Assembly: GCF_010122465.1 (NCBI RefSeq)
Contig: NZ_WLZY01000007.1
Location: 224,934-288,933 of the forward strand
Origin: Phytoactinopolyspora mesophila
GTDB lineage: Bacteria; Actinomycetota; Actinomycetes; Jiangellales; Jiangellaceae
Length of the DNA stretch: 64,000 nt
Direction: 5' to 3'
The number at the start of each line of letters is the position of its first letter. The first letter of the stretch is position 1. A model generated the notes under the pieces. The model saw only the letters and a list, made by a program, of their open reading frames with translations, was not told where the DNA came from and searched no databases. Positions 7,982-60,886 of this stretch are shown here, one piece after another. Position numbers and translations under genes: made by a program.

Positions 7982-8007
7982 CGAGACCCACGCGCCCCCA
8001 CTTCTCG

Positions 8008-8071
8008 CGTTGATCATGGGCACGTGGCACCTTCTCGCGGCCGAACAGGTGCCACGTGCCCATGATCAACG
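8008..8071. terminator. Large perfect palindrome with TGATCATG tip (25-bp arms)
   Basis: Positions 8008-8032 and 8047-8071 are perfect reverse complements with a 14-nt loop. The arms contain TTGATCATGGGCACGTGGCA. No U-tract follows. It lies between the importer operon and the CoA ligase and could end the former's transcript. It shares the GATCATG word with palindromes at 14862, 16589, 48714 and 55710. Confidence 0.6.
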
Positions 8072-8102
8072 GGAAAAGATGGGCATCGCGCATCGCGCAC
8101 TA

Positions 8103-16588: not shown

Positions 16589-16647
16589 CCCGATGATCAT
16601 GAACACTAGATGACCATATTGGTCACTTAGTGTTCATGATCATCGGG
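16589..16647. terminator. Bidirectional terminator-like palindrome with TGATCATG tip
   Basis: Positions 16589-16615 and 16621-16647 pair over 27 positions with two mismatches and a 5-nt AT-rich loop. The arm contains CGATGATCATGAACACTA. It lies at the junction of the convergent ThDP enzyme (stop at 16586) and M14-type gene (stop at 16627), overlapping the last codons of the latter, as expected of a shared terminator. Confidence 0.65.
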
Positions 16648-55709: not shown

Positions 55710-55765
55710 CCATGATCATGAGCTGTTCGCCGGGTGGTCGCCCGGCGAACAGCTCATGATCATGG
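55710..55765. terminator. Large perfect palindrome with TGATCATG tip (25-bp arms)
   Basis: Positions 55710-55734 and 55741-55765 are perfect reverse complements around a 6-nt loop; the arm contains ATGATCATGAGCTGTTCGCC. It lies between the recG stop (55776) and rsmD start (55693), both minus strand, so it would end the recG transcript. No U-tract follows. It is the tightest hairpin of the TGATCATG family here. Confidence 0.65.
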
Positions 55766-59988: not shown

Positions 59989-60180
59989 GTGGCTGCCAAC
60001 TGCGACGTCTGCGGCAAAGGCCCGGGCTTCGGCAACAAGATCTCGCACTCGCACCGCCGGACCCCGCGTCGTTGGAACCCCAATATCCAATCCGTGCGGA
60101 CCGTCGTAGGCGGCACTCCGAAGCGGATCAACGCCTGCACCTCGTGCATCAAGGCCGGCAAGGTCGTCCGCTCGGCCTGA
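59989..60180 (+). CDS. rpmB: 50S ribosomal protein L28, zinc-binding form
   Basis: The 63-residue protein starts at GTG 59989 with GGAGGAG upstream. It contains [20 protein letters not shown] and a second pair CTSC, giving the four cysteines of the zinc-ribbon L28. [16 protein letters not shown] is the family core. It is divergent from the DAK2 gene, as usual for actinobacteria, and is followed by a strong terminator. Confidence 0.96.
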
Positions 60181-60192
60181 TTCTTCACGCTG

Positions 60193-60220
60193 TGGCCGGG
60201 TAGCTCATGCTGCCCGGCCA
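60193..60220 (+). terminator. Rho-independent-type terminator of rpmB
   Basis: TGGCCGGGTAGC (60193-60204) pairs with GCTGCCCGGCCA (60209-60220) with one wobble position and a TCAT loop, followed by TTT, 12 bp after the rpmB stop. Confidence 0.75.
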
Positions 60221-60247: not shown

Positions 60248-60421
60248 GCCCTCTAAGCGTTCCAGCAGATGGAGTCTCTCCTCGCCCGCGGACTCGCTCG
60301 TGCCTCGCTCGCCAGCCGATGGTCGCGCTCGCCGGCTCCCTCGTGCCTCGTCCGACGGCTCGCCGCTCAACATGCCCGCCACACCATGGAGAGACTCCAT
60401 CTGCTGGAACGCTTAGAGGGC
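60248..60421. repeat. 34-bp perfect inverted repeat enclosing 106 bp
   Basis: Positions 60248-60281 and 60388-60421 are perfect reverse complements; the arm contains CGTTCCAGCAGATGGAGTCT. The loop is rich in CTCGCTCG/CTCGTGCCTCG words. The right arm includes the last codons and stop of the GNAT gene, so the left arm is an inverted copy of that gene end. It resembles the termini of a small non-autonomous mobile element, but no clear target duplication is visible. Confidence 0.75.
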
Positions 60422-60886
60422 GAGTTTGAAACCGGTGTGCGACGCCTCGAACCCCAGCCTCTCGTAGAAGCGGTGCGCGTCGGACCGGCTGGCGTCCGAA
60501 GTCAACTGGACCAGCGCGGCACCACGCCGGCGAGCTTCGTCGATCGCCCAGCTGATCAGCTGGCGGCCGAGACCCGAACCACGGGCGGACGAATGCACCC
60601 GCACCGCTTCCAGCTGTGCCCGGGTGGCCCCTTGGCGTGACAACCCGGAAATGAAGGTCAGCTGGAAGGTACCGACGACCTCGCCGTCTCGTTCGGCAAC
60701 CGCCAGGAACTGATGCGGATCGGCGTCGATCGTCTCGAACGCCGCCACATACCGCTCGAGCTCTTCCGGAGCCTCCCGGGCCGCGCCGAGGGGATCGTCG
60801 GCGAGCATCGCCACTATCTTCGCGACGTCGTCTCCACGAGCCGCCCGGACCCTCAAGGCACCGACGCCGGTATCCACATTCGTCAC
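60413..60886 (-). CDS. GNAT-family N-acetyltransferase
   Basis: The 157-residue protein has an LRVRAARGDDVAKIVAMLADD start, acetyl-CoA-binding motif A in VRVHSSARGSGLGRQLISWA and the terminal RFYERLGFEASHTGFKLAL. It would acetylate a small molecule or protein; the substrate is unknown. It starts at GTG 60886 without a clear ribosome binding site. Its 3' end lies inside the 34-bp inverted repeat. Confidence 0.85.
   Translation of the reverse strand: MTNVDTGVGALRVRAARGDDVAKIVAMLADDPLGAAREAPEELERYVAAFETIDADPHQFLAVAERDGEVVGTFQLTFISGLSRQGATRAQLEAVRVHSSARGSGLGRQLISWAIDEARRRGAALVQLTSDASRSDAHRFYERLGFEASHTGFKLAL

Follow-up and report, generated by a model that had tools for sequence, protein, structure and literature searches.

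A long inverted repeat lies between rpmB and a convergent gene for a GNAT acetyltransferase in the 64,000-nt stretch of Phytoactinopolyspora mesophila DNA analysed here (the window), and the first-pass annotation offered two origins for it: an inverted duplication of the end of the GNAT gene, or the insertion of a small element with terminal inverted repeats. The locus thereby raises the question of which of the two applies, and to which part of the hairpin.

The hairpin between rpmB and the GNAT gene

The two arms are exact reverse complements over 34 bp, without mismatches and with 106 nt between them (Table 1), as first described. The GNAT stop codon (TAA at 60413-60415, - strand) does lie within the right arm, together with the last two codons of the ORF at 60413-60886, and the interior, which had been called repeat-rich, contains two 34-nt direct repeats that are 76% alike. 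The inverted repeat is beyond chance: RNA folding gave z = -7.5 for the + strand and z = -7.9 for the - strand, and neither strand was equalled in stability by any of 200 shuffles. The expectation of a very stable RNA or cruciform holds at the level of prediction: RNA folding predicts a hairpin on both strands, the RNA and the cruciform themselves being putative. No Rfam family reached its gathering score anywhere in the window.

Table 1. Features of the hairpin and of its neighbours, in window positions
Feature	Position	Strand	Remarks
Left arm of stem (P1), 34 bp	60248-60281	.	exact inverted repeat of 60388-60421
Right arm of stem (P1), 34 bp	60388-60421	.	exact inverted repeat of left arm
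Left arm, outer 12 bp: GNAT gene end repeated in inverse orientation (two codons, stop codon and 3 nt)	60248-60259	.	
GNAT last two codons and TAA stop, inside right arm	60413-60421	-	
Conserved core, 5' segment (ATGGTGTGGCGGGCAT)	60372-60387	-	
Nested 58-nt unit inserted in core	60314-60371	-	
P2 hairpin and 3' segment of conserved core (GGCGAGCGAGGCACGAGCGAGTCCGC-GGGCGA)	60282-60313	-	
GNAT acetyltransferase gene, convergent neighbour	60413-60886	-	PF00583, E 4.7e-20
rpmB (ribosomal protein L28), convergent neighbour	59989-60180	+	PF00830; GTG start picked by eye
Small hairpin, likely rpmB terminator, outside the element	60194-60219	.	read by eye from sequence

A genome-wide family shares the core as well as the 22 inner bp of the arms; in the right arm, these 22 bp are similar to the consensus drawn from the arms of 39 copies (CTCC type) of the window genome. 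The outer 12 bp (GCCCTCTAAGCG) are peculiar to the locus, one arm's copy being the end of the GNAT gene, and because the coding end of GNAT recurs in orthologues, the left arm was taken to be the copy and the right arm the original. The 106-nt interior is a long version, since a 58-nt unit is nested in the core. Units similar to it are found alone elsewhere in the genome (L011-L013 and L022), apparently inside coding genes, which for L011-L013 we take by eye to be recN-like and valS-like; in the relative G005, a 58-nt-like unit forms a 58-bp tandem array (L061).

A hairpin family of the Jiangellaceae

The hairpin belongs to a multi-copy family with a conserved core and long, near-perfect arms that vary from locus to locus, located mostly downstream of genes. 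A covariance model was based on 14 copies, of which 6 came from the window genome and 8 from relatives. It had 86 matches at E<=0.01 in the window genome, where BLAST with the region of the inverted repeat returned 90 pieces. Of the model matches, 82 were fetched as separate loci, 77 of which have an inverted repeat score of at least 10 around the core, the five without a detectable inverted repeat being left out of the counts. The same model had 118 matches at E<=1e-6 in 11 relatives, of which 110 were analysed as loci and 8 left out; the 187 copies placed relative to genes do not include that of the window. Six loci in which the core pattern did not turn up were also left out. At E<=1e-6 there are 75 copies in the window genome against 24, 17, 4 and 4 in four congeners, counts which are biased towards the types of the window genome (6 of the 14 model sequences). 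A class-wide sample was searched at E<=1e-5 with stricter filters, under which weak matches are lost; 18 of 296 genomes matched, all within the 22 of the window's family, the Jiangellaceae, compared with 0 of the 274 others. The DNA pattern of the core occurs in 22 stretches of a species-representative collection, found only in Haloactinopolyspora alba, three Phytoactinopolyspora species (both genera being Jiangellaceae) and one metagenome-assembled actinomycete. No description of a Jiangellaceae hairpin family was found in the titles and abstracts of open-licence papers, and Rfam, at a threshold of E<=1, gave for 12 element loci two matches to one cobalamin riboswitch, three sub-threshold miRNA models and nothing else. 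The riboswitch (RF00174, E 5.3e-19) is situated beside two element copies, in the same place (L112 538-721 and L117 1309-1492).

Each of the two proposed origins holds in part. A one-off inverted duplication at the window locus, with no mobile family involved, is refuted for the core and inner stem by the 90 BLAST pieces and the model matches elsewhere in the genome, and the probability left to it is negligible; what survives of it is the outer 12 bp, where the left arm repeats, locally and in inverse orientation, the constrained end of the gene (GCCCTC-TAA). That a small inverted-repeat element was inserted is favoured by the multi-copy family, by a congener (L032) in which GNAT adjoins rpmB with no element, and by two sister copies that are present or absent among close relatives, with the amendment that this is not an ordinary element with terminal inverted repeats, the core being conserved between copies and the arms not. 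L032 is too diverged to show the junction itself, two other loci (L034 and L036) have other neighbours, and the window copy is without a closely related empty site. The window copy is not a single-copy sequence kept at the same place in distant relatives; some sister copies do occupy one site across several genera. In two genomes of another family (L035 and L037), hairpins downstream of GNAT contain TGTTTCACGTGAAACA, presumably a parS-like palindrome.

On the best-folding strand, the copies are laid out as arm - A[TG]GG...GGNCGGGCATC - P2 hairpin - CGCGGGCGR - arm', with 40-75 nt between the arms in 182 of 187 copies. The arms have a median length of 24 bp (stems of 12-44 bp) and contain no mismatch in 74 of the 187 copies and at most two in 166. 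P2 typically reads GGC-GA-G-GNA-C-GA-GCC, and 119 of 216 cores have the apical GA-x-GNA-y-GA motif with two or more pairs flanking it; the 97 remaining cores fall outside this pattern, and P2 is longer in many of them. Both RNA and DNA are known to contain tandem G.A pairs and GNA loops. In an alignment of 14 copies, 93.5% of the stem cells are paired, 20 of 22 pairs have changed on both sides and 0 of 500 shuffles were as good; the stem structure was partly derived from these same copies, and sliding the partner by 1-3 columns gave 39-49% pairing. The arms in the window genome are of the CTCC-ending type in 39 copies and not in 34, 7 of 73 have no similar arm among the rest, and in places their identity drops away from the core while pairing stays at about 95%. 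Half elements consisting of one arm and the 5' part of the core directly adjoin full elements at L019/L218, L064, L076, L104/L216, L185 and L217, and look as if they were leftovers of partial copying.

One reading of this architecture is a cis-acting structured RNA, whose folded core, lying in the 3' ends of mRNAs, would stop transcription, stabilise the message or bind a protein, and whose pairing would be kept by selection alone. It would agree with the composition of the P2 pair next to the loop (x-y), which in the 119 cores is G-C in 112, C-G in 5 and unpaired in 2, and with the arm mismatches that could be G.T, of which 64 are on the core strand and 25 on the other (p 4e-5), yet 64 of 4459 stem pairs is a share of G.T that we judged, without a control, to be low for an RNA-selected helix. 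The position of the copies also bears on this reading in both directions. Among the 187 copies, 80 are between convergent genes, 54 and 30 between genes on the same strand (core strand antisense, '--', and sense, '++', respectively; p 0.012), a single one between divergent genes, 21 within a predicted gene (leaving 166 that are not) and 1 is undetermined. The right-hand stop codon is at a median distance of 14 nt, and 7 of the 187 copies, the window copy not among them, overlap a flanking stop codon. These gene calls, from a finder self-trained on the loci, are approximate; a finder trained on five genes led to the same conclusions on position, with L174 being '++' there and '--' with the self-trained one. 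The downstream location, with a single copy between divergent genes, is as expected of an RNA acting in 3' ends; against it, the core is mostly antisense to the mRNA of same-strand genes, and for 64 of 80 convergent pairs it is the stop codon on the core's 3' side, the antisense one, that lies nearer (p 6e-8). Taken with the behaviour of orthologous copies described below, we regard a structured RNA as unlikely.

The same 3'-end location and convergent-gene enrichment could be accounted for by a dispersed DNA site at gene ends to which a nucleoid or topology protein binds, a role of the kind proposed for REP/BIME elements. Conservation of the core on one strand and an orientation that is not fixed at orthologous sites are in line with such a site; no binding protein was identified, and the wide variation in copy number among congeners, subject to the model bias given above, argues against it, which makes this explanation distinctly improbable in our view. 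A replication-strand bias of the core was considered and rejected: with the origin placed at dnaA and the terminus at half of the length, co-directional copies were 7/9, 6/18 and 1/8 in three single-contig genomes, with no consistent bias. In three genomes (L113, L155 and L164), the element is located inside an ABC transporter gene and is seemingly read through in frame.

Changes at orthologous sites

At orthologous sites, changes in one arm are mirrored in the other, and the core may be inverted at a site, or lost while the stem stays. Twenty-two orthologous pairs were chosen from close relatives with flanks that are 82-96% identical; they overlap and are not independent, and pairs with unalignable stems were left out. 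They contain 60 left-arm and 54 right-arm changes, and 49 of the 60 left-arm changes are identical in the right arm (6 of these 49 being gap columns), the other 11 being unmirrored. The difference per site is 0.118 in the arms and 0.024 in the core; the slow core may be explained by function in place or by repeated conversion. The same 2-bp deletion is found in both arms when L309 is compared with L280. Identity just outside the stem is 69%, compared with 45% in a shuffled control (14 pairs). For L303/L274 and L308/L168, nearly the entire stem differs, and in L308/L168 the core is inverted as well. For these two pairs, separate insertions into one spot are conceivable.

Mirrored deletions are hard to obtain by compensation one change at a time and arise readily by template switching, and the changes were read as template switching. 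According to published work, this process homogenises arms and inverts spacers (PMC8604942), and creates and keeps perfect stems (PMC8794818). It would be expected to leave multi-base changes and indels that recur in the opposite arm, as is the case here. The difference from quasipalindrome mutagenesis is that there a mutational process acts at isolated repeats, while here a whole dispersed family is involved, around a conserved core. For a structured RNA, conservation of the core at orthologous sites is a favourable point, as is a covarying P2 pair; the 2-bp deletion in both arms and the inversion of the core at two orthologous sites are unfavourable to it.

The P2 covariation and a core inversion are both found at the rpsM-rpsK (S13/S11) site, where the element is old, with a copy in four genomes (L174, L231, L271 and L298) of three genera or lineages. 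The arms are wholly different between these copies, and a rare short P2 is shared by three of the four; the covarying pair is that of L271, where GGC/GCC has become TGC/GCA. The core of the window genome (L174) is inverted relative to the other three. Here, as in L308/L168, core inversion comes with differing arms. Further shared copies are located near a gene which we take to be phosphate-acetyltransferase-like, after a presumably ftsB-like gene, and inside the ABC transporter gene. Shared sites across genera, together with a core that changes more slowly than the arms, look like function in place and not like pure mobility.

The presence of the element at a given site can differ between a species and its close relatives. 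The L301 site carries an element in G018 and a stem without core in G017, and in G021 the two stop codons are about 4 bp apart; in seven of the nine other genomes only one flank was present. An insertion into the loop of a pre-existing terminator was first favoured because the arms look locus-specific. The core-less stem of G017 has element-typical arm sequence and was therefore read as probable core loss and not as an ancestral terminator; on this basis, insertion into a terminator loop was tentatively rejected. At the L148 site, G018 has the element, G010 a core-truncated version and six genomes a short junction without it, while G012, G013 and G020 are too diverged to align cleanly; a separate hairpin, seen by eye, is already present after the stop codon. 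G017 (L350) has a different long perfect hairpin in the same intergenic spot as the element of G018, which suggests that this spot is a hot spot for hairpins. At the L322 site, the element is present in G012 and absent from G010 and G016. No target-site duplication is visible at two presence/absence sites, where the junctions have diverged, and for some of the empty sites loss instead of gain could be the explanation, which would weigh against mobility.

Proposed mode of spread and likeness to known elements

We consider it probable that the window feature is a copy of a non-autonomous, dispersed mobile hairpin of the Jiangellaceae, with arms rewritten by template switching. Copies would have spread by an ssDNA- or hairpin-based process recognising the folded core, after which polymerase template switching within the hairpin would rewrite one arm from the other. 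This would keep the stem perfect and make it specific to its locus, and could also invert the core and let the stem grow into adjacent DNA. Growth of this kind appears to have carried 9 bp from the end of the GNAT gene, plus 3 nt, from the right arm of the window copy into the left arm. Judging from its position between rpmB and GNAT, the long stem is probably also a transcription barrier or an mRNA 3'-end hairpin. In this it is like intrinsic terminators, which share the long GC-rich hairpin near stop codons and differ from the Jiangellaceae element in that the latter has a large conserved core.

The caveat to mobility is that a profile search found no Y1 transposase (PF01797) in the window's own genome or in the 22 family genomes, with matches in 5 of 14 named genomes as a control. 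Retro-mobility by an RVT_1 reverse transcriptase was rejected, as RVT_1 is present in only 3 of the 22 family genomes, and the element-rich G011, G018, G001 and G002 are without it. The window genome has two reverse transcriptase domains (PF00078; G000:C1:1372847-1373542 and G000:C17:921-1592), while its congeners have none.

By their distribution, REP elements are the nearest known kind. They are described in PMC3733652 as high-copy palindromes that are mostly between convergent or same-strand genes, downstream of them and sometimes intragenic; GTAG REPs are associated there with RAYT transposases and CGTC REPs with no known transposase. The Jiangellaceae element is likewise palindromic, extragenic and 3' of genes, occasionally inside them, a distribution that would suit a REP/RAYT system as in gamma-Proteobacteria. 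It is not a palindrome of 20-40 bp with a short loop, however: stems are 12-44 bp and cores mostly 40-75 nt, compared with the 5-13 bp stems and 2-20 bp loops given for REPs in that source (PMC3733652). The stem is 2-5 times longer and differs between copies, and the conserved part is an internal core. Nor is there, by eye on the 187 copies, a constant GTAG (or CGTC) tag, GTAGG being found inside the core in some genomes only, and with PF01797 in 0 of the 22 family genomes, a REP/RAYT system is very improbable.

The element is also like a MITE in being short, non-coding, bounded by inverted repeats, dispersed, and present or absent between relatives. The arms of MITEs are conserved because the transposase reads them, whereas those of the Jiangellaceae element diverge and only their pairing is kept, a subfamily of 39 copies sharing part of the arm. 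Some copies of Rickettsia palindromic elements lie in frame inside genes, and the same is true of some Jiangellaceae copies or nested units (the three in the ABC transporter gene), but most Jiangellaceae copies are intergenic.

A more specific version of the mobile-hairpin reading is put forward tentatively, as a possibility that we rate on the doubtful side. It supposes a mobile hairpin of a new kind, recognised by its folded single-strand core, with arms that are rebuilt and not inherited and an enzyme that is neither Y1 nor RVT_1. A GNA loop would close the core helix with its tandem G.A pairs, and template switching would rebuild a perfect, site-specific stem in every copy, carry it into neighbouring genes and flip the core. 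If the main reading, a mobile hairpin with arms rewritten by template switching, is right, compensatory stem changes, the customary proof that an RNA structure is under selection, would here arise largely by mutation, and the arms of a dispersed DNA element would change in concert, even by indels, around a core that is held. It would also point to palindrome spread in actinomycetes without a RAYT transposase. The family provides many natural replicates, at orthologous sites whose flanks are 82-96% identical, for the rate of hairpin rewriting and for the circumstances of gene-end swallowing and of core inversion or loss.

A second set of long, near-perfect hairpins whose arms contain TGATCAT(G/T) and whose loops are short or unrelated was noted by eye in the window (8001-8078, 16589-16647 and 55710-55765) and at L115, L184, L185, L189, L196 and L206. 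They are possibly another family with locus-specific stems.
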